Source of the DNA: Phycicoccus sp. HDW14
GTDB taxonomy: Bacteria > Actinomycetota > Actinomycetes > Actinomycetales > Dermatophilaceae
Length of the DNA: 64,000 nucleotides
Direction: 5' to 3'
Assembly: GCF_011383005.1 (NCBI RefSeq)
Contig: NZ_CP049935.1
Span: 2,294,001-2,358,000 of the forward strand
The translations under genes were made by a program, and so were the position numbers. Positions 3,142 to 27,488 of this stretch are shown here, piece after piece; the stretch's first letter is position 1, and the number at the start of each line of letters is the position of its first letter. The notes below the pieces were generated by a model, which saw only the letters and a list, made by a program, of their open reading frames with translations, was not told the DNA's origin and did not search any database.

Positions 3142-4640
3142 ATGTCGCTCGGTCTCGGTTGGAAGGTCAAGGGCGACGGGAAGTCGCTCGCCCCCGGGGA
3201 GGTCGTCGCCCCCGACGAGCGCCTCTCGTGGGGACGCACGGTGGGCCTCGGCGCCCAGCACGTCGTCGCGATGTTCGGCGCCACCTTCGTCTTCCCCCTG
3301 CTCATGGGCCTCAACGCGCAGCTGGCGATCATGATGAGCGGCATCGCGACCATCGCCTTCCTGCTCATCGTGCAGGGAAAGGTCCCGAGCTACCTCGGCA
3401 CCTCGGCGTCCTTCCTCGGTGGTGTCATCGCGATCCGCGCCCAGGGCGGGGACTCCGCCGACGTCACCGGGGCGATCCTCGTCGCCGGCGTCGTGCTCGT
3501 CGCGGTCGGCGTCGTCATCCACTTCCTGGGCTCGGGAGTGCTGCACAAGGTGCTCCCGCCGGTCGTCACCGGCGCGGTCGTCATGCTCATCGGCTTCAAC
3601 CTCGCCCCCGTCGTGGCCAAGACCTACTGGCCGCAGGACCAGTGGGTGGCCATCCTCACGATGGTCTTCACGATCGTCGTCGCCGTGGCGTTCCGGGGCT
3701 TCATCGGACGCATCGCCGTCTTCCTCGCCCTGATCTTCGGCACGCTGCTGTCCTGGGTCCTCGACCACACGGTCGGGCAGATCACCTCCGTCCTCGGCGG
3801 CGCCACCGAGGCCACCACCCACCTCCGGTGGAACACCGCCGGGGTCGGCGACGCCGCGTGGTTCGGCCTGCCCCCCAGCACGACCGTCGGCGCCGACGGC
3901 AAGGAGGTCGTCGGCATCCACGCGCCGTCGTTCACCGCCGCCGCGATCCTCCTCGTCCTCCCCGCGGTCATCGCCCTCATCGCCGAGAACGCCGGCCACG
4001 TCAAGGCGGTGGCCGAGATGACCGGCCACGACCTCGACCCCGTGATGGGCCGGGCGATCGCCGCGGACGGCATCGGGACGGTCATCGCCAGCTCGGTCGG
4101 CGGCTCGCCCACCACCACGTACGCCGAGAACATCGGCGTCATGGCCGCCACCCGCGTGTACTCCACGGCCGCCTACTACGTGGCGGCCGCCGTCGCCATC
4201 CTCTTCGGGCTCTCGCCGAAGTTCGGCGCCCTGGTCTTCTCGGTCCCCGGTGGGGTCCTCGGCGGCATCACCGTCGTCCTCTACGGGATGATCGGCCTGC
4301 TCGGCGCGAAGATCTGGAAGGAGAACGGGGTCGACTTCGGCAACCCGCTCAACCTCGTCCCGGTCGCCGCGGGCATCATCATCGGCATCGGTGACGTCTC
4401 CCTCAAGATCACCGACGACTTCTCCCTCAGCGGCATCGCCCTCGGCACCATCGTCACGGTGGCCGGATGGCACCTCGCGCGCTCCCTCGCCCCCGCGAGC
4501 TCCTCACCGACCGCGAGGGGACGGCGATCTCGGTCGGCGACCACGTCTACGGCGACAGCGACGGCATCGACGACCTCGCCCAGGAGGGCTACCCGGGGTC
4601 GAGGGGCGCGCGCGACCCGGAGCGCGACCGTCGCCCCTGA
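3142..4640 (+). CDS. NCS2-family uracil (uracil-xanthine) permease, apparent frameshift near its end
   Basis: A polytopic membrane protein of 499 aa after correction. The NCS2 signature region TTTYAENIGVMAATRVYS closely matches the UraA/RutG/PyrP type, favouring uracil over xanthine; a preceding IAENAGHVKAVAEMTG motif and about 12-14 hydrophobic spans fit the family. The ATG at 3142 is preceded by GAGAGG; an upstream GTG at 3097 lacks a ribosome site. The frame breaks in the C run at 4491-4494; adding one C restores the tail RELLTDREGTAISVGDH and a stop at 4638-4640. Without correction the frame reads on into the next gene. It probably imports pyrimidine substrate for the hydroxylase downstream. 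Confidence 0.88.
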
Positions 4641-4650
4641 GCCCGCACGA

Positions 4651-4688
4651 GTGCGCCCCGCCCGGCCACCTCGCCGGGTGGGGCGCAC
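4651..4688 (+). terminator. Hairpin terminator after the permease gene
   Basis: Fifteen-base arms at 4651-4665 and 4674-4688 pair with one G-T wobble-type mismatch around an 8-base loop, starting 10 bp after the permease stop. There is no long T run; several other genes in this window end in similar long GC hairpins. It suggests at least partial separation of the permease from the hydroxylase operon. Confidence 0.5.
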
Positions 4689-4752
4689 CCGTTTCCCGAC
4701 CCGCCCGCACCCACCCTTCCGCGGGCCCGTCCCGAGAGGCAGGATCGACAAG

Positions 4753-5625
4753 GTGAAGCCCGCCCCCTTCGTGCACCACGCACCGCGCTCGGTCGACGAG
4801 GCCGTCGCGACCCTCGGCGAGGTCGGCCACGACGGGAAGGTGCTCGCCGGCGGCCAGAGCCTCGTCCCCCTGCTCTCGATGCGCCTGGCCTCCCCCGGAC
4901 ACCTCGTCGACGTCAACGGCGTCCCCGGGCTCGACACGGTCGAGGTCACCGACGGATGGGTGCGCGTCGGGGCGCTCGTGCGGCACGCCGGGCTCGAGCG
5001 GCACGAGGCGGCGGTGGCCGCACTCCCCCTGCTGCGCACCGCGGTCCGCAACGTCGCCCATCCGGCCGTCCGCACGCGAGGCACGACGGTCGGCTCGATC
5101 GCCCACGCCGACCCCTCCGGCGAGATGCCCTCGGTGGCCGTCCTCACCGGCGCGGTGGCCGAGGTCGTGGGGCCCCGTGGCGCACGCGAGGTCGCCGCCG
5201 ACGGGTTCTTCACCGGCCCGCTGGAGACCACCCTCGCGCCCGACGAGCTCGTCGTCGCGGTGCGCTTCGGGCGGTTGCCGGCCGGCACGCGCACCGCCTT
5301 CCTCGAGTCCGCCCGCCGGTCCGGCGACTACGCCCTGGCCGGCGTGGCCCTGGCCCTCGGCACCGACGGCGACGTCGTCACCACCGCCCACGCCTCGTTC
5401 GTCTCCGTCACCCCCGTGCCCGACGTCCTCGACCTCGGCCCCGCGCTCGCCGGTCACCCGCTGCGCGACCTGCCGCTCGACGACGCCGCCGAGCTGGTCC
5501 GCGGCCACGTCGACCCCGAGACCGACATCCACGCGAGCGCCGACTACCGGCGGATGCTCGTCACCGAGCTGACTCGTCGCGCCCTCCTCGAGACGGCCGG
5601 CACCGCGGCCGAGGGGGCGGCATGA
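4753..5625 (+). CDS. Molybdenum hydroxylase FAD-binding (medium) subunit, CoxM/XdhB-like
   Basis: The 290-aa protein starts at GTG 4753 (VKPAPFVHHAPRSVDEA). It carries the FAD-binding PCMH pattern: LAGGQSLVPLLSMRL near residues 35-50, and RTRGTTVGSIAHADPSGEMP near residues 110-130, both flavin-contact loops in the xanthine dehydrogenase/CO dehydrogenase family. It passes electrons between the iron-sulfur subunit and the external acceptor. It is coupled by an ATGA overlap to the 2Fe-2S subunit gene. No cysteine cluster for a [4Fe-4S] site is seen. Confidence 0.88.
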   Translation: MKPAPFVHHAPRSVDEAVATLGEVGHDGKVLAGGQSLVPLLSMRLASPGHLVDVNGVPGLDTVEVTDGWVRVGALVRHAGLERHEAAVAALPLLRTAVRNVAHPAVRTRGTTVGSIAHADPSGEMPSVAVLTGAVAEVVGPRGAREVAADGFFTGPLETTLAPDELVVAVRFGRLPAGTRTAFLESARRSGDYALAGVALALGTDGDVVTTAHASFVSVTPVPDVLDLGPALAGHPLRDLPLDDAAELVRGHVDPETDIHASADYRRMLVTELTRRALLETAGTAAEGAA

Positions 5626-6128
5626 GCGAGCCCGTCACCGACCAGCAGCTCTCGATCACGGTGCGCGTCAACGGGGTCCACCGCACGGCATCGGCACCGG
5701 CCCGTCGGCTGCTCTCCGACTTCCTCCGCCACGACCTCGGCCTCACCGGCACCCACGTCGGCTGCGAGCACGGCGTGTGCGGCGCGTGCACCGTGCTCGT
5801 CGACGGCGAACCGGCCCGGGCCTGCCTGATGTTCGCCGTCACCGCGCAGGCCCACGACATCACGACGGTCGAGGGCATCGGCAACGACCCGTCCGCCCTC
5901 AGCCCGGTGCAGCAGGCCTTCGCGGAGTGCCACGCGCTCCAGTGCGGCTTCTGCACACCGGGGTTCATCACCACGATCACGGCGTACCTCGAGGAGCATC
6001 CCGACCCGACCCGCGAGGAGGCCCGCGAGGCCATCTCGGGCAACCTCTGCCGGTGCACCGGCTACCAGAACATCGTCACGGCCGTCGTGCGCGCCGCCGA
6101 GATCCGCCACGAGCGGGGGCTCGCGTGA
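5622..6128 (+). CDS. Molybdenum hydroxylase [2Fe-2S] (small) subunit, CoxS/XdhC-like
   Basis: A 168-aa protein with both iron-sulfur domains of the family. The N-terminal plant-type ferredoxin motif is GCEHGVCGACTVLVDG (about residues 46-61, plus RACLMF); the C-terminal motif contains QCGFCTPGF near residue 109 and SGNLCRCTGYQNI near residue 141. Length is typical. It connects the molybdenum centre to FAD. Its start overlaps the preceding stop (ATGA) and its stop overlaps the next start (GTGA), so the three subunits form one tightly coupled unit. Confidence 0.93.
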   Translation: MSEPVTDQQLSITVRVNGVHRTASAPARRLLSDFLRHDLGLTGTHVGCEHGVCGACTVLVDGEPARACLMFAVTAQAHDITTVEGIGNDPSALSPVQQAFAECHALQCGFCTPGFITTITAYLEEHPDPTREEAREAISGNLCRCTGYQNIVTAVVRAAEIRHERGLA

Positions 6129-8529
6129 CCACGCGCCAGGTCGGCGAGCGGGTCCAGCGCCGCGAGGACCCCCGCCTCCTCACCGGCAACGGCCGCTACG
6201 TCGACGACCTCGGGCGCGGTGCCCTGCAGGCGGCGTTCGTCCGCAGCCCCCACGCCCACGCGCGCGTCGTCGACATCGACATCGCCGACGCGTGGGAGCT
6301 CGACGGCGTCGAGGCGGTCTACACGTGGGACGACCTCGACGGCCGGGTCGCCGAGCCGCTCCCCGTCCTCATCCCCCACCCCGCGATGACCCACGCCCGC
6401 ACCGGCACCTGCCTGGCGCGCGACGAGGTCAATCACGTCGGCGAGGCCGTCGTCATGGTCGTGGCCCGCGACCGGTACGTCGCCGAGGACGCCTGCGGCC
6501 GCATCACCGTCACGTACGAGACGCTGCCCGCCGTCGTCGGCCTCGAGAACGCCCGAGCCGCAGACCGGCTCGTGCACGACGACGTCCCGGGCAACGTGTC
6601 GGCCACCCTGCGCCAGGAGGTCGGCGACGTCGACACGGCGATGGCCGCGGCCCCGAACCGGCTCACCCTCGACCTCGAGATCGAGCGCAGCGCCTGCATG
6701 CCGATGGAGGGCAAGGGCGTCTACGCCCGCTGGGACGCCGACGACGAGTCGCTGCGGCTGTACTCCTCCACCCAGACCAGCACCGGGGTGCGCGCCGCCG
6801 TCGCGGCCAAGCTCGGGATGCCGCTCGCCAAGGTCGAGGTCGTCACGCCCGACGTCGGCGGCGGCTTCGGCGTCAAGATCGTCCACCCGTGGCCCGAGGA
6901 GGTCCTCGTGCCGTGGGCCGCGCGCCGGCTCGGCCGCGACGTCAAGTGGACCGAGGACCGCCGCGAGCACTTCGTCTCCTCCGCGCACGAGCGGGGCCAG
7001 CTGCAGGAGGTCGAGGTCGGCTTCGACGACGACGGCCGGCTGCTCGCCCTCGACGTCCGCTTCTGGCACGACAACGGTGCCTACACGCCCTACGGCATCA
7101 TCGTCCCGATCATCACGGCCACCCAGCTGCTCGGGCCGTACAAGCCGGGCGCCTACCGCGTCGAGTTCTGGAGCCTCTACACGAACACCGTTCTCGTGAC
7201 GCCCTACCGGGGCGCCGGGCGACCTCAGGGCTGCTACGCGATGGAGCGCACGATGGACGCCATCGCCGCCCACCTCGGCCTCGACCGCGCCGAGGTCCGC
7301 AGCCGCAACTTCATCCAGCCCGACGAGATGCCGTACGACCACGGCCTGATGTTCCAGGACGGCCGGCCCCTCAAGTACGACTCCGGCGACTTCCCGGCCA
7401 GCCTCGCCAAGCTCAAGGCGCTCGTCGGGTGGGACGACTTCGCCGCCTACCGCGAGCAGGCCGCCGCCGAGGGACGGCGCGTCGGCCTCGGTATCGGCTG
7501 CTATGTCGAGGGCACCGGGGTCGGCCCGTACGAGGGCGGCCACGTGCAGGTCGAGACCTCCGGGCGGGTCAACGTCGCCACCGGCCTCACCACCCAGGGC
7601 CAGGGCCACCAGACCGTGCTGGCCCAGATCGTCGCCGACGAGCTCGGCGTCCGGCTCGAGGACGTCCACGTCACCACGGGCGACACCCGCCGGATGGCCT
7701 ACGCCGTCGGTACCTTCGCCTCGCGCGGCGCCGTGATGTCGGGCAACGCCGTCGCGCTGGCCGCGAAGGTCGTGCGCGAGAAGGCGTTGCGCATCGCCGC
7801 CGATGCCCTCGAGGTCTCCGCCGACGACCTCGAGATCGCGGACGGGGTCATCTCCGTCAAGGGGGCGCCCGGCACCTCCATCGGCCTGAGCACCGTCGCC
7901 GTCCTGTCCAACCCGCTGCGCTACGCCTTCGACGCCTCCGCCGCGGCCGCCACCCAGTTCGCCGGCACGTTCGACCCCGACAAGCCCCGGTCGCCGACGA
8001 CGACGAGCCGGGCCTCGAGGGCCAGGACTTCTACTCCCCCACCCAGGCCACCTTCGCCAACGGGATGCACGCCGCCGTCGTCGAGACCGACCCCGTCACC
8101 GCCGAGATCCGCATCCTGCGGTACTGCGTCGTCCACGACTGCGGCGTCATGGTCAACCCGATGATCGTCGAGGGCCAGGTGCACGGCGGCGTCGCGCAGG
8201 GCGTCGGCGGCGCCCTCTACGAGCGGATGGTCTACGACGAGGGCGGCCAGCTGCTCAACGCCTCGTTCATGGACTTCCTCGTCCCGTACGCCTCCGAGGT
8301 GCCGCACGTCGAGACCGACCACCTCGAGACGCCGTCGCCGCTCAACCCGCTGGGGCTCAAGGGCGCCGGCGAGGCGGGGACCATCCCGGTGTCGGCGGTC
8401 ATCGCCTCGGCCATCGAGGACGCCGAGGGCTTCCCCATCCGCTCGATGCCCATCAGCCCCGCCGAGCTCTGGGAGCTGCGGCGGGCCCGCGCCACCGACC
8501 CCGTTCCCGCGCAGGAAGGTCCGTCATGA
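6125..8529 (+). CDS. Molybdenum hydroxylase large (Mo-pterin) subunit, candidate uracil/thymine dehydrogenase; apparent frameshift
   Basis: The 801-aa product (after one base is restored) starts at GTG 6125. It has the aldehyde oxidase/xanthine dehydrogenase fold: early GNGRYVDD, VGGGFGVK, the active-site loop PYRGAGRPQ (as in form II CoxL-type proteins, not the AYxCSFR of true CO dehydrogenase) and a late KGAGEAG carrying the conserved glutamate. It hydroxylates a heterocycle with water as oxygen source. Uracil permease upstream and a barbiturase-like gene downstream make uracil/thymine to barbiturate plausible; xanthine is the main alternative. The frame breaks in the CCCC run at 7985-7988; the tail resumes as DDDEPGLEGQDFYSPTQATF and ends at 8529. 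Confidence 0.85.
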
Positions 8530-9185
8530 AGATCACCGGCACCTCGACCCTCGACGCCGCCCCCGACGCGGTGTGGCGGGCCATCCTCGACCCGGCGGTC
8601 CTCGCCCGCTGCATCCCCGGCTGCGAGGCGCTGACCACGGTCGGTGAGGACCGGTACGCGATGACCGTCACGGCCGGCGTCGCGGCCATCAAGGGCACGT
8701 ACACCGGCGAGGTTGCCCTCACCGACATGGAGAAGCCGTCGGCGCTGCGGCTGAAGGCCAACGGCGCCGGCGGTCCCGGCACCATCGACGCCGACGTCCG
8801 GGTGCACCTCACGCCGTCGGGTGCCGGCGGCACCGACCTCGCGTACGAGGCCGACGCGACCGTGGGCGGCACCATCGGCGGGGTCGGCCAGCGGATGCTC
8901 GCCGGCGTCACCCGCAAGATGGCCGGCCAGTTCTTCAGCGCCCTCGACGCCGACATCGCCGGCGGCGGAGCGCTCCCCGCCGCGCCCGCGAGCGCCCTGG
9001 TGGCCGGCACCGCGGGCTCGGGCTCCGCACCGGCCGCGCCCGCCGTCGGCACCACCTTCACGGGCCGGGCCGCAGGACCGGCGGCGAGCACGAGCGCCCG
9101 CGACCTCGTCGTCGCCGCGGTGGCCGGGGGGCTGCTGGCCCTCGCCGGCGTCGCGCTCGGCTGGCGGCTGGGGCGGCGGTCCTGA
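8526..9185 (+). CDS. CoxG-like SRPBCC protein with C-terminal membrane anchor
   Basis: The 219-aa product begins with the SRPBCC/CoxG fold (MKITGTSTLDAAPDAVWRAI, then DPAVLARCIPGCEAL), followed by an Ala/Pro/Ser-rich linker (about residues 145-190) and one hydrophobic helix near the end (VVAAVAGGLLALAGVALGW) followed by Arg residues, which would anchor it to the membrane facing the cytoplasm. CoxG of aerobic CO dehydrogenase recruits the enzyme to the membrane and has been reported to handle menaquinone. An analogous role for the hydroxylase encoded just upstream is inferred from the overlap of start and stop (8526/8529). Confidence 0.85.
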   Translation: MKITGTSTLDAAPDAVWRAILDPAVLARCIPGCEALTTVGEDRYAMTVTAGVAAIKGTYTGEVALTDMEKPSALRLKANGAGGPGTIDADVRVHLTPSGAGGTDLAYEADATVGGTIGGVGQRMLAGVTRKMAGQFFSALDADIAGGGALPAAPASALVAGTAGSGSAPAAPAVGTTFTGRAAGPAASTSARDLVVAAVAGGLLALAGVALGWRLGRRS

Positions 9186-10084
9186 TGCGCGCCTTCACCG
9201 CCGCCGCCGTCCAGGTCGCCCCGCACCCCGGCCCGCTGACGGCCGAGTCGGTGACCCGCAACATCGACCGCTGCATCGACTACACGCGCCGCTGCGTCGA
9301 GGCCACCGGCGCCGAGCTCGTCGTCCTCCCCGAGTCGTGCACCACCGGCTTCACCCCGGGCATCCCCACCGAGGAGCTCTGGGAGCTGGTCTCCGAGGTC
9401 CCCGGGCCGGTCACCCAGCGGCTCTGCGACGCCGCCGCCGAGCTGGGTGTCCACCTCGTCGCCGGCACCTACGAGCGAGGCCCGACGCCCGACGTGGTCT
9501 TCAACTCCTCCGTCCTCGTCGACCCCCAGGGCGTGATCCGCGGGGTGTACCGCAAGACGCACCCGTTCTGCTCCGAGGCCGTCGCGGGCGGCGGGTGGGT
9601 GACCCCCGGCGACTCCGTCACGGTCGTCGACACCGCGCTCGGCCGGATCGGGATGATCATCTGCTTCGACGGCGACTACCCCGAGCTGGCCCGCATCCAG
9701 GCGGTGCGGGGCGCCGAGGTCATCGTCCGGCCGTCGGCGCTGCTGCGCTCGGCCGACGTCTGGGAGCTGACCTCCCGGGCCCGCGCGTACGACAACCACG
9801 TCTACGTGGTCGGCGCCAACGCCACCGGAACCGACGCCGCGGGCGTGCACTACTTCGGGAACAGCCACGTCGTGACCCCGCTCGGCCACATCGTCGCCAA
9901 GGCCGCCTCGCACGAGGGCTGGGTGTCGGCGCGGCTCGACCCCGCAGAGGCGCTGGCGTCGCTGACCCCCGGCTCGAACATCGGCCAGGGCTTCGACCAC
10001 CTGCGCGACCGGAACCTCGACCTCATCCGGAGCCACCGCGACGACCTCGAGGCACCGGCCAAGACCTCCTTCCCGCACGCCTGA
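9185..10084 (+). CDS. Carbon-nitrogen hydrolase (nitrilase superfamily)
   Basis: The 299-aa protein shows the nitrilase-superfamily catalytic triad: Glu in VVLPESCTTGF (near residue 50), Lys in YRKTHPF (near 122) and Cys in GMIICFDGDYPE (near 160). The family hydrolyses nitriles, amides or N-carbamoyl compounds. Its start overlaps the CoxG stop (TGATG), so it belongs to the hydroxylase operon. In that context it might act on a carbamoyl or amide intermediate such as ureidomalonate, but the substrate is a guess. Confidence 0.85.
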   Translation: MRAFTAAAVQVAPHPGPLTAESVTRNIDRCIDYTRRCVEATGAELVVLPESCTTGFTPGIPTEELWELVSEVPGPVTQRLCDAAAELGVHLVAGTYERGPTPDVVFNSSVLVDPQGVIRGVYRKTHPFCSEAVAGGGWVTPGDSVTVVDTALGRIGMIICFDGDYPELARIQAVRGAEVIVRPSALLRSADVWELTSRARAYDNHVYVVGANATGTDAAGVHYFGNSHVVTPLGHIVAKAASHEGWVSARLDPAEALASLTPGSNIGQGFDHLRDRNLDLIRSHRDDLEAPAKTSFPHA

Positions 10085-10139
10085 GGAACCCGTCGACCCC
10101 CACCGGCGTGTCGCCGACGGCTTCGGGGGACAATGCGGT

Positions 10140-10364: not shown

Positions 10365-10494
10365 GCCGGTCCCGGGCCCCCGACCGGCCCGAGTTCCCCC
10401 GGACCCCTGCCCCCCGAGCACGCCACCCGGTAGCCTCGCCGCGACGGCGTGCCACGGGTGCATCGCCGCGCCGAGGTCCGGGGAGGGACGCACG

Positions 10495-10992: not shown

Positions 10993-11103
10993 GCCGACTC
11001 CCTTCACGCACACCGGCGCGCGGAACCGGGGGACCTCGCGCCGCGTCCACCAGTCACCACCCACACCCGGGGTGCCTCCGGCGCCCCTGAAAGGTCAGGA
11101 ACC

Positions 11104-13544: not shown

Positions 13545-15651
13545 ATGACCGAGCGGCAGCGGCGGATCCGGGTGGGCATCGACACCGGGGGACCTTCACC
13601 GACGTCGTGGCCGTCGACGAGGACTCGGGCGAGGTCGTCACGACGAAGACGCCGAGCACACCGGCCAACCCCGCGGACGGGTTCATCGCGGGCATCGAGA
13701 AGATCCTCGCCACCCTGGGCGCCACCGGGCACGACCTCACGGCCGTCTCGCACGGCACGACGGTCGCGACGAACAAGCTCCTCGAGGGCAAGGTCGAGCG
13801 GCTGGGGTTCGTGACGACCGAGGGCTACGAGTTCATGCTCGAGATCGCCCGCCAGGCGGTCCCCGACGGCTACGGCAACTCCTACTTCTGGGTCAAGCCA
13901 CCCCGCATCGTCCCCGCCGACGCGGTGCGCACCGTGCGCGGCCGCCTCGACGTCACCGGCGCCGAGGTGCGTCCGTTCTCCGAGGACGACGCCGTCGCCG
14001 CCGCCCACTTCTTCCGGGACCGGGGCATCACGACGATCGGCGTCTGCTTCCTGCACTCCTACGCGAACGACGAGCACGAGCTGGCCATGCGCGAGGTGCT
14101 GCGACGCGAGCACCCGGAGGCCGTCGTCTCGATCAGCAGCGAGGTGCTGCGCGAGTACCGCGAGTACGAGCGGGCGATGACCACGCTCGTCGACGCCGCC
14201 GTCAAGCCGAACGTCAGCCGCTACGTCCGCAACATCCACGAGCGCCTCGACGGCTTCACGGGCGGGCGGCCCGTGCCGTTCTACGTCATGAAGTCCAACG
14301 GCGGTGTGCTGTCGGCCGACGAGGTCGTGCACCAACCGATCACCACCGTGCTGTCCGGGCCGGCCGCCGGGGCCCTCGGCGCTGCGCTCATCGCCGAGCG
14401 CGCCGGCTTCCCCAAGGTGCTGACCTGTGACGGCGGCGGCACCTCGACCGACGTCTCCGTCGTCCTCGACGGCGAGCCGACGCTGACCACCGAGGGGTCG
14501 GTCGGGGCCTACCCCAGCAAGATCCCGATGATCGACGTCGTCACCGTCGGTGCCGGTGGCGGGTCGGTCGCGTGGGTGTCCCCCGAGGGCACGCTCAAGG
14601 TCGGGCCGCAGTCGGCGGGCGCCGACCCGGGGCCGCTCTGCTACGGCCGCGGGGGCACCGAACCGACGATCACCGACGCGCACGTCGTGCTCGGCCGCAT
14701 CCCTCCGCACCTGCTGGGCGGGGAGATCCCGCTCGACGTCGAGGCGGCCCGGGTCGGCCTCCAGGCGCTGGCCGACCGACTCGGCCTCGACCTGGAGCGT
14801 TGCGCCACAGGCGTCCTCGAGATCTCTGCGTGGAACCAGGCGAACGCACTGCGCCAGGTCTCGGTCAAGCGCGGGCTCGACGTCCGCGACTTCATGCTGA
14901 CGACCTTCGGCGGCTCCGGGTCGCTGCTGGCCTGCCGGCTCGTCGACGTCCTCGACCTCGCCGGCGTCGTCGTGCCGCAGAACCCGGGCAACCTCAGCGC
15001 CTTCGGGCTGCTCACCGTCGACGTCCGCAACGACTACGTCCAGACCCACGTCGCGCGCCACGACGCCCTCGACCTCGCCGAGGTCTCCGTCATCCTCGAG
15101 GCCCTGACCGCCAAGGGTGCCGCGGCCCTGACGGCGGAGGGCTTCACGCCCGAGCAGCACGAGTTCGTCCGCACCGTCGACCTGCGCTACTTCGGCCAGG
15201 CCTACGAGGTGCGCGTCCCGGCCGGGTCGGGCACGGTCGACGACGCCTGGGCCCAGGAGGTGGCGGCGCGCTTCCACGACGAGCACCGGCAGCTCTACGG
15301 CTACGACTTCCGCGACGACCCCACCCAGCGCGTCGAGTGGGTCAACCTGCGGGTCACCGGGGTCGGCCCGATCACCCGCCCCGAGCTCCAGCCCCTCCCC
15401 ACCCGTGACGGGGGTGGTCCGACACGGAGAGCCTGCCGGGGCAGCGCTCGACCCGGCCGGTGTGCTTCGACCCCGGGGCCGGCTCCGTCGACACCCCGGT
15501 GCTCTGGCGCCCCGACCTGCGCGCCGGTGACACCTTCGCCGGCCCCGCCATCGTCGAGGAGTTCGGTTCGACCGTCCCGGTGCACCCCGGCTTCGCGGTG
15601 CGCGTCGACGGTTGGGGCAACCTCGTCGTCACGAAGGAGGAGTCCCGATGA
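13545..15651 (+). CDS. Hydantoinase/oxoprolinase subunit A (HyuA-like), two apparent frameshifts
   Basis: About 702 aa once two bases are restored, a normal HyuA length. It has the ASKHA-type ATPase fold: RIRVGIDTGGTFTDVVAVDE at the N-terminus, SHGTTVATNKLLEGK, GPAAGALGAALIAE, CDGGGTSTDVSVV, and GGSGSLLACRLVDVLD. Breaks occur in the G run 13587-13591 (inside DTGGTFTD) and at the G run 15410-15414, after which the frame resumes as DTESLPGQRSTRPVCFD. HyuA/HyuB enzymes use ATP to open hydantoin, oxoproline or lactam rings; acetone carboxylase is related. Substrate unknown. ATG 13545; the stop overlaps the hyuB start (ATGA). Confidence 0.85.
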
Positions 15652-17637
15652 CCGCCGAGCCGCGCACGCCGCGCACCCCCGAGGAGACCGCGGCCTACCT
15701 CGCGAGCCCGCCGGTCAACCCGGCCGGCCTCCCCACCGCGTACGAGCACGGCGGCCGCCTCACCGCCGAGGGCACCGCCGTCGACCCGATCCTCGTCGAG
15801 ATCGTCCAGGGCACCCTCGCGAGCGTCGAGATGGAGGTCGAGACGGCCATCGCCCGCACGTCCCGCAGCCCGATGATCCGCGACGCCCACGACTTCCGCG
15901 CCGGAATCCACGACCGGCAGCTGCGCAAGCTCACCGGCCGCTCGTACTCGGCGCTCGTGCACCCCGTCGTCCGCGACTTCCCGGTCGAGCAGATGCGCGA
16001 GGGCGACGTCTACTTCCACAACGACGTCTACGAGTCCGAGGGCGGCATCGGCCACCTGCCCGACCTCTGCGTCACCGTCCCGGTCTTCCACGACGGCGAG
16101 GTCGTCGCGTTCGTCCAGGCCTTCGGTCACCACGACGACATCGGCGGCGCGGTGCCCGGCTCGATGCCCAGCAATGCCCGGACCGTGTTCGAGGAGGGAC
16201 TCTCCGTCCCGCCGATCAAGCTGTGGGACAACGGAGTCCCCAACCGCGCCGCGCTGCGCATCATGACCCGCAACAGCCGGATGCCCGACAGCCTGGCCGC
16301 CGACCTCGACGCCGAGTGCTCGGCCTGCCTCATGGGCGCCCGGCGCCTCGGCGAGCTGTTCGCCCGCTACGGCCGCGACACCGTCGAGGCGGCGTTCGAC
16401 GCCATCCTCGACGCGACGACCGAGACCTACCGGCGCGAGGTGCTCGACCGCATCCCCGACGGCACGTACGTCTGGGAGGACTACGCCGAGCACGACGGGG
16501 TCGACGAGCCCATGCTCCACACCCAGCGGATCACCCTCACCAAGACGAGCACCGGCGGCCCCGGGCCCGGTGACGGCGGCCCACGCCTCGTCATCGACTT
16601 CACCGGCACCGGCCCGCAGGCCAAGGGCCCGATCAACCACTGCGGCGACTACGTGGGCGGCAACTTCCTCGTCAAGTGGCTGGCCCCGTGCTGCGCAACC
16701 TCGCCGACTCCCCCGAGCGGATGGCCGAGCTCGACGTCAACGAGGGCGTCGTGCCGCTCATCGAGATGCGCTTCCCCGAGAAGGGGACCCTGCTCACGCC
16801 GATCTACCCCGCGCCGACCAACGCCCGCACCTTCGTCATCCTCCGGCTGCTCGGGGTGCTCGCGGGAGTGGTGGCCAAGGCCGTCGACGGCCGGATGCCC
16901 GCCGACCAGGAGACCATCCGCTACACCGGGGTCTACGGCCAGGACGCCGACGGCGAGGACTACCTCATGCGCGAGGTGCTCGGTGGCGGCTCGGGCGGGC
17001 GCTACTACGCCGACGGCGAGGACACCATCCACGTCGTGCCCGACAGCCGGAACCTGCCGACCGAGTTCACCGAGAGCCGTTTTCCCTTCCGCGTCGAGCG
17101 GCTCGGGCTCGCCGTCGACTCCGGAGGTGCTGGGCGCCACCGCGGCGGGCTCGGCTACGAGAAGCACGTGCGGATGCTCCGGGACGCGCACTTCATGTCC
17201 ATCGCCGACCGCTCGATCCTCGCCTGCTGGGGCGTCAAGGGCGGCAGGGCCGGCCGGCCGTTCGAGGTGACCGTCGACCTCGGCGGCCCCGACGAGCGCG
17301 TCGTCGACGCCCTCGCCGACGCCGAGCCGGTGCGCGCCGGGCAGGTCATCCGGATCCGCACGACCGGCGGTGGTGGGTGGGGTGACCCGCTCGAGCGTCC
17401 CTACGACGAGGTCGAGCGCGACCTGCGCTGGGGCAAGGTGTCGTTCGAGGGCGCCCGGCGCGACTACGGGGTCGTCGCGACCGGCACGAAGGACGAGCCC
17501 GTGGTCGACGTCGTCGCCTCGGACGCCCTGCGCGCCGGGCGCCGCGCGGCCCGTGGCGCCGAGCCGTTCTTCGACCGGGGCCCGGCTACGCCCGCCTCTC
17601 CGGCGGCGCGACCTCGGCCGACGTCGACTGGGTCTGA
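15648..17637 (+). CDS. Hydantoinase/oxoprolinase subunit B (HyuB-like), two apparent frameshifts
   Basis: About 663 aa after two corrections. Family features include DPILVEIVQGTLASVEMEVE near the start, SPMIRDAHDFRAGI, YFHNDVYESEGGIGHLPD (metal-binding Asp/His) and HHDDIGGAVPGSMP. Near the C-terminus TTGGGGWGDPLERP is the typical HyuB ending motif. Breaks: the C run at 16684-16687 (restores KWLAPVLRNLADSPERM) and the GGGGCCC at 17577-17583 (restores DRGPGYARLSGGATSADVDW and the stop at 17635). It forms the catalytic pair with HyuA. Uncorrected, its frame runs into the NmrA-type gene, which is not a real fusion. Confidence 0.85.
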
Positions 17638-17638
17638 C

Positions 17639-18493
17639 GTGGCCGAGGCGGCCGACGACCGCCCGGTGCTCGTCGTCGGGGTGGCCGGGAAGACCGGCCG
17701 GGCCGTGGCGGCCGCCCTCCGGCGACGCCGCGTGCCGGTGCGCGGGACGGTCCGCCCCGACCGCGCGGACGACACCCCGCACGGCGTCGAGCCCGCCGAG
17801 GTCGACCTCGACACCGGGGACGGCCTCGAGGCCGCACTGGCCGGGTGCCGCGCCGCCTACCACCTGGCCCCGAACGTGCACCCCGACGAGGTGGGGATGG
17901 CCCGCCGCTTCGCCGCCGCGGCCACCGCGACCGGGCTCCCCCACGCCGTCCTCCACTCGGTGCTGCACCCCGAGGACCGGCGCATGCCCCACCACCTCCG
18001 CAAGGCCGCGGCCGAGCAGGTGCTGCGCGAGCGGCTGCCGGCCTCGCTCGTCGTCCTCCGCCCGTGCGCGTACCAGGAGAACCTCCTGCCGCAGGTGCTC
18101 GCCGGCGAGGTGGTCCTCCCCTACTCACCGGACGCGCCGTTCACCGCGGTCGCGCTCGACGACGTCGCGGAGGCCGCGGCAAAGGTGCTGCTCGACCCGG
18201 CGAGCCGCCGCGCGACCTACGACCTCGCCGGCCCGCAGGCCCTGTCCACGCGCGAGATGGTCGAGCAGGCCGCCGAGGTGCTCGGCCGTCCGGTCGCGGT
18301 CCGGGTCGTCACGCCCTCCGCGTGGGCCACCGGACCCGGGGCCGGCCTGCCGCCGCGGGCGCGCGACGACCTCGTGCAGATGTTCGCCGCGTACGACGAG
18401 GACGGCCTCGTCGGCGACCCCGCCGACCTCGCGACCCTGCTCGGACGCCGCCCGACCCGGTGGTCCGAGACCGTCGCGGCGTCCGGCCGCTGA
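17639..18493 (+). CDS. NmrA/SDR-type NAD(P)-binding protein
   Basis: A 284-aa protein with an N-terminal Rossmann motif VLVVGVAGKTGRAVAAALRRR (GxxGxxG type) and the atypical-SDR layout: YHLAPNVHPDE, HAVLHSVLHP, LRPCAYQENLLPQVL and FTAVALDDVAEAAAKVLLDP. No classical YxxxK catalytic pair is evident, so it is likely an NmrA/HSCARG-like sensor or atypical reductase. GTG 17639 is one base after the HyuB stop, so it is co-transcribed with hyuAB. Its role with them is unknown. Confidence 0.75.
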   Translation: MAEAADDRPVLVVGVAGKTGRAVAAALRRRRVPVRGTVRPDRADDTPHGVEPAEVDLDTGDGLEAALAGCRAAYHLAPNVHPDEVGMARRFAAAATATGLPHAVLHSVLHPEDRRMPHHLRKAAAEQVLRERLPASLVVLRPCAYQENLLPQVLAGEVVLPYSPDAPFTAVALDDVAEAAAKVLLDPASRRATYDLAGPQALSTREMVEQAAEVLGRPVAVRVVTPSAWATGPGAGLPPRARDDLVQMFAAYDEDGLVGDPADLATLLGRRPTRWSETVAASGR

Positions 18494-18538: not shown

Positions 18539-18557
18539 GGCGTGGGCCCTCGGCCGC

Positions 18558-21465: not shown

Positions 21466-21622
21466 CCCGGTGCTCCTCCGTGTGGGTGGCACGACGGGAG
21501 GCACCGAGGTCGCCGCGGACCGGATCCCGACCGCGACCGTGTGGTTGGGCCCCCGGCCCCGTCGCATCCGACCACCCAACCCGACCGTCCACCTGAGAAG
21601 AACCTGAGGAAGTCATGGAGTT

Positions 21623-21635
21623 GGTCAATTCTTCG
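21623..21635 (-). promoter_or_regulatory. 13-bp AT-rich motif CGAAGAATTGACC upstream of the M36 protease
   Basis: On the minus strand this reads CGAAGAATTGACC in the direction of the protease gene, ending 157 bp before its start. The identical 13-mer lies at 37857-37869 in the direction of the lipase gene. It contains TTGACC, which resembles a -35 element. Nearby on the plus strand at 21592-21609 is a direct repeat of CCTGAG. Function unproven. Confidence 0.4.
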
Positions 21636-21751
21636 TCAGGTCGCGCCGCGGCCGGCGGGTCGGGCTGCGGCGCGCCGGACCCCGACCGCACGCCGGACGG
21701 CGCCGGGGCGGGACTAGGTTGGCCGGACACCGAGCCAGGAGGAAGCCGACC

Positions 21752-22941
21752 ATGTCCGGACCGCTCGACGGCATCACCGTCGTGGACCTCTCCCGGGCCC
21801 TCGCCGGCCCGCACGCCGCGATGCTGCTCGGCGACATGGGCGCGCGCGTCGTCAAGGTCGAGTCGGCCGGTGGTGACGACACCCGCGGCTGGGGTCCGCC
21901 GTTCGTCGGCCCCGAGGACGACCCGGTGTCCACGTACTTCCTGTCGTGCAACCGGAACAAGGAGTCGATCGTCCTCGACCTGAAGTCCGACGACGGCCGC
22001 GACGTGCTGACCCGGCTGGCGCGCCGGGCCGACGTCCTCGTCGAGAACTTCCGGCCCGGGGTGATGGACCGCCTCGGGTTCGGGGTCGAGCACCTGCACG
22101 CGCTCAACCCCGGGCTCGTCATCCTGTCGATCAGCGGCTTCGGCCACGACGGGCCCGAGGGTGGCCGCCCGGCTACGACCAGATCGCCCAGGGCGAGGCC
22201 GGGCTGATGTCGGTCACCGGCACCGGGCCCGACGAGCCGCAGCGCGTCGGCGTGCCGATCGCCGACCTGCTCGCGGGCCTCCACGGTGCGTACGGGGTCG
22301 CGGCGGCCCTGCGCGAGCGAGAGCTGACCGGGCTCGGCCGGGTCGTGCGCACCTCGCTGCTCGCGGCGGTCGTCGGGGTCCACGCCTTCCAGGGCACGGC
22401 GTACACGGTCGCCGGCCAGGTCGGTCGGGCGCAGGGCAACCACCACCCCGCGCTCGCGCCCTACGGGCTGTTCCACGCGAGCGACGGCCCGGTGCAGGTC
22501 GCGGTCGGCTCGCAGGGGCTGTGGGTGCGCTTCGCCGAGGCCTTCGGCATCGACCCCGCCGACCCCCTGCTGGCCACCAACGCCTCCCGCGTCGCGCACC
22601 GCGAGCACCTCGTCGAGGTCATCGACACCTCGTTCGGCACCTGGCGCGCCGAGGACCTCCTGGCCCGGCTCGCCGAGCTCGGCATCCCCGCCGGCAAGGT
22701 CCGCACCGTCGACGAGGTCTACGACTGGGACCAGACCCGCTCGCAGGGGCTGGTCGTCTCGGTCGACCACCCGGTGCTCGGCCCGGTCGAGCTGCCCGGG
22801 CCGCCGATCCGGTTCGACGACAACGCCTTCGGTGGTGGACGCGAGACCCATCTGCCGCCACCGGCCCTCGACGAGCACGGGGCGGCCATCCGGGCCTGGC
22901 TCGACGGGGCCGACGCCGCGGACGGCCCCGCCCACACCTGA
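21752..22941 (+). CDS. CaiB/BaiF (family III) CoA transferase, apparent frameshift
   Basis: A 396-aa enzyme after correction. ATG 21752 follows AGGAGG. The N-terminus is typical ([20 protein letters not shown], then [11 protein letters not shown] with the CoA-binding region); the catalytic Asp is expected in [33 protein letters not shown] and ILSISGFG also fit. The frame breaks at 22168-22172; restoring one G gives [17 protein letters not shown]. The family moves CoA between carboxylic acids. In this locus malonate from ureidomalonate cleavage is a candidate acceptor, but oxalate, formate or carnitine-type substrates cannot be excluded. Confidence 0.85.
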
Positions 22942-22972
22942 CGGCGTGCCCCGTCCTGCCAACGGCACGCCG
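22942..22972 (+). terminator. Hairpin after the CoA transferase gene
   Basis: CGGCGTGCC (22942-22950) and GGCACGCCG (22964-22972) form a 9-bp stem directly after the stop. This suggests that carbamate kinase starts a separate transcript, or that read-through is partial. Confidence 0.45.
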
Positions 22973-23065
22973 CCTCTTGGGCAGAACCTGACAACGCGGA
23001 CCCCGCGGCGCGCTCCCTAGGGTCGAGTCCCGGGCACCCGCCCGGCGACGGCGGAGCGAGGTGAC

Positions 23066-24001
23066 ATGCGGGTCCTGCTGGCCCTCGGCGGCAACGCGAT
23101 GACCGGTCCCGACGGCAGCGCCACCCCCGGCGCGCAGATCGCCGCCGTCACCGGGGCGATGCAGGCCGCCGCCCGCCTCGTCGCGGCCGGCCACGAGCTG
23201 GTCGTCACCCACGGCAACGGCCCGCAGGTCGGCAACCTCCTCGTGAAGAACGAGCTGGCCGCGCACGTCGTCCCGCCGGTCCCCCTCGACTGGTGCGGTG
23301 CCCAGACGCAGGGGACGCTCGGCTTCACCATCCTCGACGCGCTCGACGGCGCGTTGGCCGCCGCCGATGCGCACCGGCCGGTGGCCGCGCTCGTCACGCG
23401 CACCCTCGTCGACCGCGACGACCCCGGCTTCACCCACCCGAGCAAGCCCGTGGGCCGGTACCTGCCCGAGGACCAGGCGCGGCGGATGGTCGAGCACGGC
23501 CAGGTCTGGGAGGACCGCGGCGAGAAGGGCTGGCGCCGGGTCGTGGCCAGCCCCGAGCCGCTCGAGGTGCTCGACGTGCCGGCCGCCCGGACGCTGCTCG
23601 ACGCCGGGTACGTCGTCGTCGTGGCCGGCGGCGGGGGCATCCCGGTCGTCCGCGACACCGACGGGGTGCTGCGCGGCGTCGAGGCGGTCATCGACAAGGA
23701 CCTCACGGCGGCGCTGCTCGCCCGGGCCCTGCACGCCGACGTCCTCGTCATCGCCACCGACGTCGACCACGCGGCGGTCGGCTTCGGCACCGACGCCCAG
23801 CGCGACCTCGGCCGGGTCACGCTCTCCGAGCTGCACGACCTCGCCGACGCCGGCGAGTTCGCCTCCGGCTCGATGGGCCCGAAGGTCGAGGCCGTCTCCC
23901 GCTTCGTCGCCGCCGGAGGTCCGCGCGGCGTCATCACGTCACTCACCCACATCACCGACGCCGTCGACGGGGGCTTCGGCACCGTCGTCGAACCCGACTG
24001 A
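23066..24001 (+). CDS. arcC: Carbamate kinase
   Basis: 311 aa, the usual length. The amino-acid-kinase fold carries ArcC signatures: LLALGGNAM at the N-terminus, VVTHGNGPQVGNLL near residue 48, DRDDPGFTHPSKPVG, GGGGIPVV near 193, VIDKDLTAALLA near 212, and a closing GSMGPKVEAVSRFV. It interconverts carbamoyl phosphate plus ADP with carbamate plus ATP. No arcA/arcB genes are adjacent; it sits 12 bp before the barbiturase-like gene, so it probably captures carbamoyl groups or carbamate released during ureide breakdown. The symbol is by family; no arginine deiminase link is implied. Confidence 0.9.
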   Translation: MRVLLALGGNAMTGPDGSATPGAQIAAVTGAMQAAARLVAAGHELVVTHGNGPQVGNLLVKNELAAHVVPPVPLDWCGAQTQGTLGFTILDALDGALAAADAHRPVAALVTRTLVDRDDPGFTHPSKPVGRYLPEDQARRMVEHGQVWEDRGEKGWRRVVASPEPLEVLDVPAARTLLDAGYVVVVAGGGGIPVVRDTDGVLRGVEAVIDKDLTAALLARALHADVLVIATDVDHAAVGFGTDAQRDLGRVTLSELHDLADAGEFASGSMGPKVEAVSRFVAAGGPRGVITSLTHITDAVDGGFGTVVEPD

Positions 24002-24013
24002 GAGGAAACCGCC

Positions 24014-25140: not shown

Positions 25141-25218
25141 CCCCGGTCCCGGTAACGGCGGGTCCCTGACCTGCGCCGATGTCGCATGCCCGGAGGTACC
25201 CGTGGGTAGGAGAGCGGC

Positions 25219-25979
25219 GTGCCACCGACCCACGACACCCAGAACCCGCCCACCGGGCCGCTCGAGCAGCTGCTCTCGGCCCGCCGCGAGGAGCACCTCG
25301 AGACCTCCCCCGCCGCCTCCATCACCGCCGCGGTGGCCGAGATGGTCGCCCATCCCGAGTACCCCTGCCTCGGGGCCCGCTCGGTCTTCCGCCGCGACGC
25401 CGTGACCTCCGTGGTGCTCGACGACCTCACCGACACCTCGCCCGGCGGCTCGCTCGACGCCCTCGGCGAGCACCTGCGCGCGTTCGCCGCCTCGGCCGAC
25501 CCCACCGGCGACCTCGTCTCGTTCGTCGCCTGCTTCCGCGGCCCCGCACCGGCCGGCGAGCGCGCCTACGAGAAGCGGCTCTGGGCGGCCCTGCGCCACC
25601 TCCACGCCCACGACGAGTCGCCGTGGCCGGGTGCCGTCGCCGACGACCCGGTCGACCCGCACTTCGCGTTCAGCGTCGGGGGACGCCGTTCTTCGTCGTC
25701 GGCCTGCACCCGGACGCCTCCCGCATCGCCCGGCGCGCGCCGGTCCCGACGCTCGTCTTCAACCTCCACGAGCAGTTCGAGCGGCTGCGCTCCGACGGCC
25801 GGTTCGAGCGGATGCGCGACACCATCCGCCGCCGCGACACCGATCTGCAGGGCAGCCTGAACCCCATGGTCGCCGACCACGGCGAGGCCTCTGAGGCCCT
25901 CCAGTACTCCGGGCGCGAGGTCGCGCCCGGCTGGGTCCCGCCCTTCCGCCCCCGCCCCCTCGACGAGGAGCCCGCATGA
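25219..25979 (+). CDS. YqcI/YcgG (GntA-like) family protein, apparent frameshift
   Basis: 253 aa after correction. Family features: HPEYPCLGARSVFRRD (near residue 45), FFVVGLHPDASRIARR, LVFNLHEQFERLR, and the C-terminal DLQGSLNPMVADHGE and SGREVAPGWVPPF. The frame breaks in the G run 25678-25682. Characterised relatives include GntA, a heme-dependent N-hydroxylase of guanitoxin biosynthesis, so an N-oxygenase role is possible, but substrate and cofactor are not visible here. The stop overlaps the DUF1989 start (ATGA), so the two are co-translated. Confidence 0.78.
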
Positions 25980-26647
25980 ACCCCGCCCGCACCCGGTACC
26001 CGCGCAGCGGCGACGCCCCGCCCTACGGCGGCGGACCCGACGGGCCGGCAGACGGCTGGCAGCGCATCGCGCCCCAGACCGGTCTGGCGGTCGAGCTGGC
26101 GCCCGGCGACCGGCTCACCCTCCTCGACCCCTGCGGTGAGCAGGTCAGCGACCTCTACCTCGTGAGCGCCGACGACGTCGCCGAGCAGTTCTCCTCCGGC
26201 CGCACGACCGACTTCGGCAACAGCGTCTACGTCTCGACCGGCTCGCTCCTGTGGAGCAACCGCAGCACCCGGCTCGCCGAGGTCGTCGACGACACCGTCG
26301 GCGTCCACGACCTGACGCTCACGCCGTGCAGCCAGGCGACCTTCGACGTCCTCTACCCCGACCTCGGCGGCGCACCACACCCCAGCTGCTTCGCCAACCT
26401 CGTCGGCGCGCTCGGGCCGTACGGCGTCGACCCGGACCGGATCGGTGTGACGCTCAACGTCTTCATGGACGTGTGGACCGACGAGCGCGGCGAGCTGCAC
26501 ATCGACCCGCCGCCGACCCGGCCCGGCGACCGGTTCACGATCGAGGCCCGGGTGCCGCTCGTCGCGGGCATCACGGCCTGCTCGGCCGAGAAGTCCAACA
26601 ACGGCACCTGCACGCCGATCGACGTCCGGGTCGAGCGGGCCGGCTGA
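25976..26647 (+). CDS. DUF1989 / urea carboxylase-associated family protein
   Basis: 223 aa. It matches the family through LLDPCGEQVSDLYLV (near residue 50), the cysteine-containing LTPCSQATFDVLYPD, HPSCFANLVGAL (near 140), LNVFMDV and the terminal ACSAEKSNNGTCTPIDV. These Cys/His/Glu positions look like a metal or cofactor site in an aminomethyltransferase-like fold. Members are commonly found near urea or guanidine carboxylase genes, but none is in this window. It is translationally coupled to the YcgG-like gene, linking it to processing of a nitrogen-rich small molecule. Its biochemical activity is not established. Confidence 0.8.
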   Translation: MNPARTRYPRSGDAPPYGGGPDGPADGWQRIAPQTGLAVELAPGDRLTLLDPCGEQVSDLYLVSADDVAEQFSSGRTTDFGNSVYVSTGSLLWSNRSTRLAEVVDDTVGVHDLTLTPCSQATFDVLYPDLGGAPHPSCFANLVGALGPYGVDPDRIGVTLNVFMDVWTDERGELHIDPPPTRPGDRFTIEARVPLVAGITACSAEKSNNGTCTPIDVRVERAG

Positions 26648-26702
26648 CGGGCCCGCGGCCGCACCCCTCGGCGGTGGCGCTCCGGCGCGCTACATTCCGC
26701 TC

Positions 26703-27488
26703 GTGCACATCGACGAGGAGCAGCCGGAGGCGGAGATCGACGAGGCCTTCGACCGGCTGCTCGAGGAGGGCCGGGACCGGCTCGAACGACCGCTGTGGAC
26801 CCTCGTCCCGACCGGGCTGCTCGGCGGCATCGACGTCGGGGTCGGCATCCTGGCCTACCTCGTCGTCAAGCACGAGACGGACAGCCAGCTGCTCGCCGCC
26901 CTCGCGTTCTCCGTCGGGTTCGTCGCCCTCCTGCTGGCTCAGAGCGAGCTGTTCACCGAGAACTTCCTCGTGCCGGTGACGACGGCCGTCGCGGAGAAGG
27001 GCAACTGGGGACGGTTGCTGCGGCTCTGGGCGGTCACGCTCGTGACGAACATCGCCGGGGGCGCGCTCGTCATCTGGGTCATCCTCGTGGCCCGTCCGGA
27101 CCTCGCGGAGGTCACCCGGGAGACCGGCGAGCACTACGCCGAGCTCGGCGTGAACCTCCGCAGCCTCATGCTCGCCGTGCTCGGCGGGCTGGTCATCACG
27201 CTCATGACGCGGATGCAGAACAGCACCGACAGCGTGGGGGTGAAGATCGTCCCGGCCGTCCTCCTGAGCGCCGTGCTCGTCGGCGCCGAGCTGTTCCACG
27301 CGGTGCTCGACCAGATCCTCATCATCGGCGCGATCATCGCCGGGTCCGACATCACCCTCGGCCAGCTCGTGACCGCGCTCGTGTGGGCGAGCTTCGGCAA
27401 CATCGTCGGCGGCGTGGGGTTCGTGACCTTCCTGCGGCTCGTGCGCTCCGCCCCCAAGGTCGAGCGCGAGCGGTCGGCGACGACCTGA
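26703..27488 (+). CDS. Formate/nitrite transporter (FNT) family channel
   Basis: 261 aa with a charged N-terminal extension of about 40 residues (EEQPEAEIDEAFDRLLEEG) and six predicted membrane helices; the FNT half-helix regions are around LLAQSELFTENFLVP and TALVWASFGNIVGG. It resembles the YfdC-like branch more than classical FocA. FNT channels move small anions such as formate, nitrite or hydrosulfide. GTG 26703 is 55 bp after the DUF1989 gene, so it may be the end of the same transcript and could export or import a product anion; this is inference. Confidence 0.78.
   Translation: MHIDEEQPEAEIDEAFDRLLEEGRDRLERPLWTLVPTGLLGGIDVGVGILAYLVVKHETDSQLLAALAFSVGFVALLLAQSELFTENFLVPVTTAVAEKGNWGRLLRLWAVTLVTNIAGGALVIWVILVARPDLAEVTRETGEHYAELGVNLRSLMLAVLGGLVITLMTRMQNSTDSVGVKIVPAVLLSAVLVGAELFHAVLDQILIIGAIIAGSDITLGQLVTALVWASFGNIVGGVGFVTFLRLVRSAPKVERERSATT

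Follow-up and report, generated by a model that had tools for sequence, protein, structure and literature searches.

A conserved gene cluster of Phycicoccus sp. HDW14 probably encodes the oxidative catabolism of uracil, and likely of thymine too, with an ending in which an AllFGH-type transcarbamylase and a carbamate kinase would recover adenosine triphosphate (ATP) and avoid urea. The stretch of DNA that was analysed, here called the window, comprises 64,000 nt (G000:C1:2294001-2358000) of the single 4.07-Mb contig of this genome (NZ_CP049935.1), and its genes were identified by scanning the open reading frames (ORFs) for matches to Pfam and NCBIfam profiles. A first-pass annotation of the window had proposed an oxidative uracil/barbiturate catabolism locus, a proposal that is now supported by the barbiturase phylogeny, by the conserved gene order and by the co-occurrence of the genes.

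The barbiturase gene

By its sequence, the amidohydrolase encoded at 24014-25140 on the plus strand, a member of the AtzD/TrzD family, is a barbiturase, and hydrolysis of barbiturate is predicted for it. The window protein is 84% identical to the barbiturase structure 5hwe and only 44-47% identical to three cyanuric acid hydrolases, and a comparison of its first 308 residues with PDB 5hwe gives 557 bits, versus at most 257 bits with the cyanuric acid hydrolases, although all of them belong to a common family (TIGR02714, PF09663). In a tree for which 15 of the 80 related loci described below were used, the window protein groups with barbiturase, as the first-pass annotation had expected, and the barbiturase and cyanuric acid hydrolase clades are separate with a support of 100/100, the branches of the latter being long. 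The window protein, 5hwe and all 80 homologues have Asn at the site that corresponds to Arg188 of cyanuric acid hydrolase, where the three cyanuric acid hydrolases have Arg; an excerpt of PMC4051656 describes this position as changed in barbiturases and gives it as glutamine, whereas the 5hwe chain itself shows Asn. The NCBIfam model for cyanuric acid hydrolase (NF052395) is passed by the first piece of the window protein (382.7 bits, cut-off 360), and since the barbiturase of Rhodococcus erythropolis also passes it (477.5 bits), this model cannot separate the two enzymes. The R. erythropolis NBRC 15567 barbiturase and 5hwe have nearly the same sequence, and the closest barbiturase to that of the window, among the best 80 of at least 574 relatives, is that of Phycicoccus sonneratiae (96%). 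One part of the earlier annotation of this gene did not stand, namely its reading as a single open frame, as one gene lies there in two frames with a break at about 24.94 kb. Genome G108, which also has a barbiturase, carries a second and remoter PF09663 copy (C1:503153-504250, 349 bits), perhaps a paralogue that resembles cyanuric acid hydrolase.

Conservation of the cluster

The loci compared are the best 80 of at least 574 barbiturase relatives from a scan of bacterial genomes, taken with up to 10 kb on each side, many of them being cut by an edge; according to the record titles, all 80 are actinobacterial. The carbamate kinase gene (23066..24001, plus strand, identified by NCBIfam) is the immediate upstream neighbour of the barbiturase gene in 71 of them. 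HyuA and HyuB adjoin in 38 of the 80 loci, CoxG stands right after CoxL in 16, and an NmrA-like protein (17663..18493 in the window, plus strand) comes directly after HyuB in 16. When presence was scored by tblastn, the kinase was found in 74 loci, the CaiB-type coenzyme A (CoA) transferase in 50, HyuB in 49 and HyuA in 39, and the six kinase-free loci are five of Rhodococcus and L071, where a contig ends near the gene. A typical cluster has AllG-AllF-AllH in divergent orientation to PucR-UraA-CoxM-CoxS-CoxL-CoxG-amidase-HyuA-HyuB, and R. erythropolis carries, in this sequence, barbiturase, amidase, aminotransferase, UraA, CoxM, CoxS, CoxL, CoxG, HyuA, HyuB, NmrA.

For whole-genome searches, 50 of the 80 loci (the named set) were picked, leaving out metagenome-assembled and uncultured ones as well as isolates L076 and L100; 48 of these 50 genomes were searched (L071 and L095 being left out), which together with the genome of HDW14 gives a set of 49. 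An orthologue of CoxL occurs in 47 of the 49 and an orthologue of HyuA in all of them, with an identity of at least 69% compared with at most 42% for paralogues, and HyuA lies on the contig of CoxL in 45. A sample of the order comprised 396 genomes, of which 31 are barbiturase-positive and 365 negative. HyuA is present in 31/31 of the former and 6/365 of the latter, so that 31 of the 37 HyuA-positive genomes carry barbiturase, and AllG in 31/31 and 14/365, respectively; five of those 14 barbiturase-negative genomes with AllG also carry HyuA.

These data support the cluster as one conserved system. The first-pass annotation had described three modules separated by unrelated genes and had linked them by inference; the genes themselves were recovered, namely the nitrilase-like enzyme, CaiB, CoxG and HyuAB by Pfam and the carbamate kinase by NCBIfam, and the link is now supported by conserved order and co-occurrence, so that the three modules are better described as a single system.

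The AllFGH transcarbamylase and the carbamate kinase

AllG and AllH were first met in cluster stretches of a barbiturase-free genus, where Pfam identified them as oxamate carbamoyltransferase subunits. In the genome of HDW14, AllH, AllF and AllG lie side by side on the minus strand (genome positions about 2289785-2293445), outside the window and directly left of the PucR-type regulator, so that all three subunits of an oxamic transcarbamylase AllFGH adjoin there. The regulator, correctly placed upstream of the cluster in the earlier annotation, is divergent from AllH; the window holds its C-terminal 302 residues (1..909, plus strand; Pfam GGDEF_2, HTH_30; 49-909 as window ORF), and the full gene of 453 amino acids extends 453 bases beyond its left edge. 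The AllF, AllG and AllH of HDW14 are 37%, 46% and 42% (the last over 106 residues) identical to those of Escherichia coli and score 105 bits against Ligase_CoA, 323 bits against PF06545 and 82 bits against PF11392, respectively, and the best solved match of AllF is the E. coli-type FdrA 3dmy (211 bits). The carbamate kinase match to arcC spans positions 2-308 of 309, and its score of 334 bits falls just short of the equivalog cut-off (358).

A strong AllG lies 6-16 kb from CoxL on one contig in 39 of the 44 AllG-positive genomes of the named set and HDW14, and in the other five the two are on differing contigs or CoxL was unmatched. Among 55 genomes, 49 combine a strong AllG with a cluster-type carbamate kinase and six have neither, these six being the five Rhodococcus and G219. 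No kinase match was found in four of the Rhodococcus genomes and in G219, the fifth Rhodococcus has an unlinked kinase, and two weaker AllG matches occur in one of the Rhodococcus genomes. An AllG tree was built from 27 loci, E. coli and the genome of HDW14, the partial L120 being left out; in it eight of the nine AllGs taken from other contexts share a supported clade with E. coli AllG, to which no AllG of a uracil cluster belongs, the ninth sitting on a long branch of unsure place. As a separate observation, L146-L152 carry AllF-AllG and carbamate kinase in other contexts, without HyuA orthologue or barbiturase and in some cases together with one more gene, of about 550 amino acids, possibly another ureide pathway.

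Ureidomalonate is oxalurate plus one CH2; therefore, equal chemistry would yield malonamate. The precedent is the allantoin/oxalurate branch of E. coli, in which, according to an excerpt of PMC11326118, AllFGH converts oxalurate and phosphate to oxamate and carbamoyl phosphate, from which carbamate kinase then makes ATP. The same excerpt reports that urease-negative enterics have the AllFGH set and that Klebsiella, which is urease-positive, lacks it, E. coli O157:H7 departing from this pattern, so that occurrence mainly in urease-negative hosts is a further likeness to the cluster, besides AllF, AllG, AllH, carbamate kinase and a ureido-acid substrate. Unlike that branch, the cluster occurs in aerobic-type actinobacteria and in a pyrimidine context, its AllG falls outside the E. 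coli clade and its proposed substrate is ureidomalonate; moreover, its amide product could be processed further, since the cluster also contains an amidase and a CoA-transferase.

We hypothesize that in HDW14 uracil would be imported by UraA and hydroxylated to barbiturate by the CoxMSL molybdenum hydroxylase with the assistance of CoxG, and that barbiturase would open barbiturate to ureidomalonate. The AllFGH-type transcarbamylase would then phosphorolyse ureidomalonate to malonamate and carbamoyl phosphate, with no urea formed, and carbamate kinase would use the carbamoyl phosphate and adenosine diphosphate to make ATP, ammonia and CO2. A second ammonia would be freed from malonamate by the nitrilase-superfamily amidase, and the resulting malonate would be activated to malonyl-CoA by the CaiB-type transferase. 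If this is true, pyrimidine catabolism in soil actinobacteria would have a new ending that conserves energy, which would account for the use of both nitrogens by species without urease. No description of a urease-independent, ATP-recovering end of uracil catabolism was found in the open-access literature, nor was an open-access paper that treats barbiturase together with carbamate kinase, and among the open-access papers listed for a ureidomalonate-type term none deals by its title with ureidomalonate enzymology. To our knowledge, uracil dehydrogenase and ureidomalonase are activities without assigned genes; the cluster supplies concrete candidates for the former, and two types of amidase are candidates for the latter. 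A broader proposal, which we make tentatively, is that many actinobacteria may gain ATP from uracil through AllFGH and carbamate kinase independently of urease, that HyuAB may replace barbiturase in six genomes and that the proteins named "CO dehydrogenase group 5" may be uracil dehydrogenases.

HyuAB, amidases and the fate of malonate

HyuA (13589..15651, ends approximate), of the ATP-dependent hydantoinase type, and HyuB (15648..17635, end approximate) are both on the plus strand, with frame changes at about 15.45 kb and 16.65 kb, respectively. The HyuA of P. sonneratiae has PDB 7hk5 as its nearest structure (475 bits), its kin being ATP-dependent N-methylhydantoinase and 5-oxoprolinase, and it scores 496 bits against the NCBIfam caprolactamase alpha model, far under the cut-off of 1000. 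N-methylhydantoinase and 5-oxoprolinase are enzymes that open ring amides. Thus the cluster HyuAB shares its family with N-methylhydantoinase, caprolactamase and 5-oxoprolinase and differs from them in lying far under the caprolactamase cut-off and in its linkage to CoxL. As a constant partner of the cluster, HyuAB would most likely serve in the ATP-dependent opening of barbiturate or of a methylated relative. Six genomes of one genus (L116-L121, L133-L138) have UraA, CoxMSL, amidase and HyuAB and no barbiturase, and five of them retain AllG, AllF and carbamate kinase, whereas the sixth, G219, additionally lacks AllG, kinase and urease. The most economical reading of these barbiturase-free genomes, to which we give slightly less than even odds, is an opening of barbiturate or of its 5-methyl form by HyuAB. 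The idea that HyuAB itself makes carbamoyl phosphate was set aside after AllFGH was discovered, and the impression that Rhodococcus is without HyuAB was rejected, as the first loci, with at most 10 kb on each side, ended too early and longer stretches showed HyuAB.

The nitrilase-superfamily amidase of the window (9185..10084, plus strand), which is proposed to act as malonamate amidase (or ureidomalonase), carries Glu-Lys-Cys motifs that were read by eye and that we take to be those of this superfamily. Where CoxG and HyuA are both present (19 loci), the gene between them encodes an amidase-signature enzyme in 12 cases, a nitrilase-superfamily enzyme in five, neither in two and both in none. 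The nitrilase-like gene of the window therefore looks like a substitute for the amidase-signature enzyme of the relatives, because it occupies the slot of that amidase and both never occur together. In an amidase tree (20 rows, minus two short ones, plus four added), the barbiturase-adjacent amidases of Rhodococcus (four rows) form a deep clade with a support of 100/100, apart from a 12-row kinase-type group (82/99, unstarred), as would be expected if one type were the ureidomalonase and the other a malonamate amidase.

The CaiB-type CoA-transferase (21752..22941, plus strand, frame change at about 22.2 kb) is proposed to activate malonate. A carboxyltransferase-like protein, below all NCBIfam cut-offs, occurs in 17 of the 80 loci and together with CaiB would take malonate to malonyl-CoA and acetyl-CoA.

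The urea route

The described oxidative pathway ends in malonic acid and urea by the action of barbiturase and ureidomalonase, according to an excerpt of PMC3758960, which cites Soong et al. (2001). The nitrilase-like enzyme or another amidase could accordingly be the ureidomalonase, giving malonate and urea that is excreted, with AllFGH and the kinase acting elsewhere. We consider this unlikely for the cluster, although an amidase does adjoin barbiturase in R. erythropolis and three further Rhodococcus loci and urease is equally common with and without barbiturase. The cluster resembles the R. erythropolis oxidative pyrimidine pathway in its barbiturase and in the neighbourhood of permease, molybdenum hydroxylase, CoxG and HyuAB; it differs in that the five Rhodococcus, which are without linked carbamate kinase or strong AllG, all have urease and allophanate hydrolase, and in that four of them have an amidase of the other clade, apart from most kinase-type ones. 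Over the whole set, urease passes its cut-off in 11 of the 48 named genomes and allophanate hydrolase in 7 of 49, the five Rhodococcus being included in both counts, and the genome of HDW14 gave no urease match. One or the other enzyme occurs in 8 of the 44 AllG-positive genomes, and 36 of the 49 barbiturase-positive genomes are without urease and allophanate hydrolase over the cut-off, so that urea nitrogen would be lost to them. The full agreement between strong AllG and cluster-type kinase (55/55) also speaks against an action elsewhere.

Several observations, in addition to the barbiturase-free genomes described above, weigh against the ATP-recovering ending. In the family of HDW14, urease passes its cut-off in 6 of 20 genomes with barbiturase and in 3 of 14 without it, and the corresponding counts in the order sample are 9/31 and 90/365. 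The suggestion that barbiturase-positive genomes are depleted in urease was rejected, as these controls show no difference; urease is no rarer with barbiturase, and therefore the contrast rests mainly on one genus, Rhodococcus. G042 and G311 have AllG, kinase, HyuAB and urease and no barbiturase, and the AllG rows of uracil clusters form no single supported group. The p-values of the co-occurrence (1e-35 for AllG and 2e-40 for HyuA) ignore shared ancestry and are to be read as strong linkage and not as exact odds. Two placements in the amidase tree are unpredicted by the idea of two amidases, namely the weak joining of the amidase of the kinase-type locus L068 to the Rhodococcus clade and the position of the amidase of the kinase-free G219 in the clade of its kinase-bearing kin. 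With carbamate kinase found as positive control, a relative of the carboxyltransferase-like protein, a malonyl-CoA decarboxylase candidate, was not found in the window or in L131, the 9 kb at its left edge, and the same was true of an amidase-signature relative. Finally, at least seven genes of the span carry frame changes: UraA, CoxL, HyuA, HyuB, CaiB, barbiturase and a YqcI-like gene (25.67 kb).

Frame breaks in the HDW14 sequence

If these breaks were real, the pathway would be dead in HDW14, and the presence of frame changes in at least seven genes of the span is what such a decay would leave. We regard this reading as quite improbable. The break test covered the genes with a homologue in the loci of relatives that were used, and compared with the intact proteins of relatives it showed internal frame changes in eight genes, seven within the span and one, purH (27.71 kb), beyond it. 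On both sides of the break, the identity to P. sonneratiae is 87-98% for CoxL, HyuA, HyuB, barbiturase and purH, 82 and 94% for CaiB and 73 and 93% for the YqcI-like gene, and for UraA, which was compared with another Phycicoccus, it is 86 and 78%. Sequencing error is the more probable cause, since the core gene purH is affected as well and the flanks are mostly 87-98% identical to an intact relative. The genome consists of one contig with a completeness of 92.7%, compared with 99-100% in the other listed genomes of the family, which also fits residual indel errors. The breaks are thus likelier to be mainly residual indel errors of the assembly than signs of decay. Because of such errors, the annotation of the HDW14 genome may contain many false pseudogenes. 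A fusion of permease and flavin adenine dinucleotide (FAD) subunit (an 842-aa ORF at 3097-5625) was rejected as an artefact of the UraA frame break. The C-terminal part of HyuB and the NmrA-like protein also read as a single ORF (16676-18493), either a fusion or a further assembly error.

The permease and the molybdenum hydroxylase

The genes for UraA, CoxM, CoxS, CoxL, CoxG and the nitrilase-like enzyme are co-directional from 3142 to 10084, and the ends of the last five touch or overlap. As the first-pass annotation had stated, a UraA-type permease and a molybdenum hydroxylase with a PYRGAGR loop are present, the families being assigned by Pfam and the loop read in the window. The UraA/RutG-type nucleobase permease (3142..4637, plus strand; Pfam Xan_ur_permease; frame change at about 4.5 kb) has RutG as its best NCBIfam match (353 bits), ahead of uracil permease (242 bits) and xanthine permease (145 bits), all under their cut-offs. 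The hydroxylase has three subunits, all on the plus strand: a CoxM-type FAD subunit (4753..5625; Pfam FAD_binding_5 and CO_deh_flav_C; extent set by the alignment of relatives), a CoxS-type [2Fe-2S] subunit with its own reading frame (5622..6128; 90% identical to the P. sonneratiae homologue) and a CoxL-type molybdenum subunit (6125..8529; frame change at about 7.98 kb), which is proposed as the large subunit of a uracil/thymine dehydrogenase. They are followed by a CoxG-type protein that overlaps its neighbours (8526..9185, plus strand; Pfam COXG). Oxidation of uracil requires hydroxylation adjacent to a ring nitrogen. The large subunit appears to be of the N-heterocycle type, as judged on the homologue of L082, which is 74% identical to the molybdenum subunit of the window and whose nearest solved structures are quinoline 2-oxidoreductase (452 bits) and 6-hydroxypseudooxynicotine dehydrogenase (448 bits), with carbon monoxide (CO) dehydrogenase at most at 382 bits and xanthine dehydrogenase at most at 154; aerobic CO dehydrogenase is thus not its closest solved relative. 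The PYRGAGR loop is found in all 13 readable of the 17 linked CoxL copies. Relatives of XdhC, MobA-like, CoxD and CoxE proteins were not found in the window or in L131, where carbamate kinase served as positive control and was found.

It is very unlikely that the cluster belongs to a purine ureide pathway, with the molybdenum hydroxylase acting on xanthine or another purine and AllFGH and carbamate kinase on oxalurate from allantoin. The permease family does include xanthine and urate carriers. In addition, the excerpt of PMC11326118 names oxalurate as the substrate of the E. coli AllFGH and carbamate kinase route. Nevertheless, no allantoin-pathway gene was recognised among the scanned ORFs, the xanthine dehydrogenases score far below the quinoline oxidoreductase with the L082 query, barbiturase accompanies HyuA in most HyuA-positive genomes, and the AllGs that group with E. 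coli AllG come from outside the uracil clusters.

That CoxMSL is an aerobic CO dehydrogenase with no role in uracil use is extremely improbable, since, although the CoxL piece of the window reaches 1183 bits against the NCBIfam model CODH_aero_grp5 (cut-off 950), its L082 homologue is nearer to the quinoline and pseudooxynicotine hydroxylases, its loop is constant among the readable linked copies and CoxL is linked to permease, HyuAB and barbiturase across many genera. By its context and by the nearest structures of the homologue, the CoxL-type protein is more likely a uracil hydroxylase than a CO dehydrogenase. This suggests that at least part of the CO dehydrogenase group 5 family is probably misnamed, which is relevant for surveys that count coxL genes.

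Neighbouring genes

An M36 fungalysin-type metallopeptidase, which appears split over two frames, lies on the minus strand at about 18.5-21.6 kb, between NmrA and CaiB. It was rejected as a part of the cluster, as were the genes for flotillin (3/80 loci), GH25 (2/80), LigT (2/80) and a methyltransferase (0/80). After the barbiturase gene, at 25179-27488, follow a YqcI/GntA-like gene, a DUF1989 (UAAP-like) gene and a formate/nitrite-type transporter that ends at 27488; these three were also rejected as cluster parts, being matched in one, one and two of the 80 loci, respectively, the first two in P. sonneratiae only. Two adjoining thermolysin-type (M4) metallopeptidases are encoded on the minus strand at 33899-37766.

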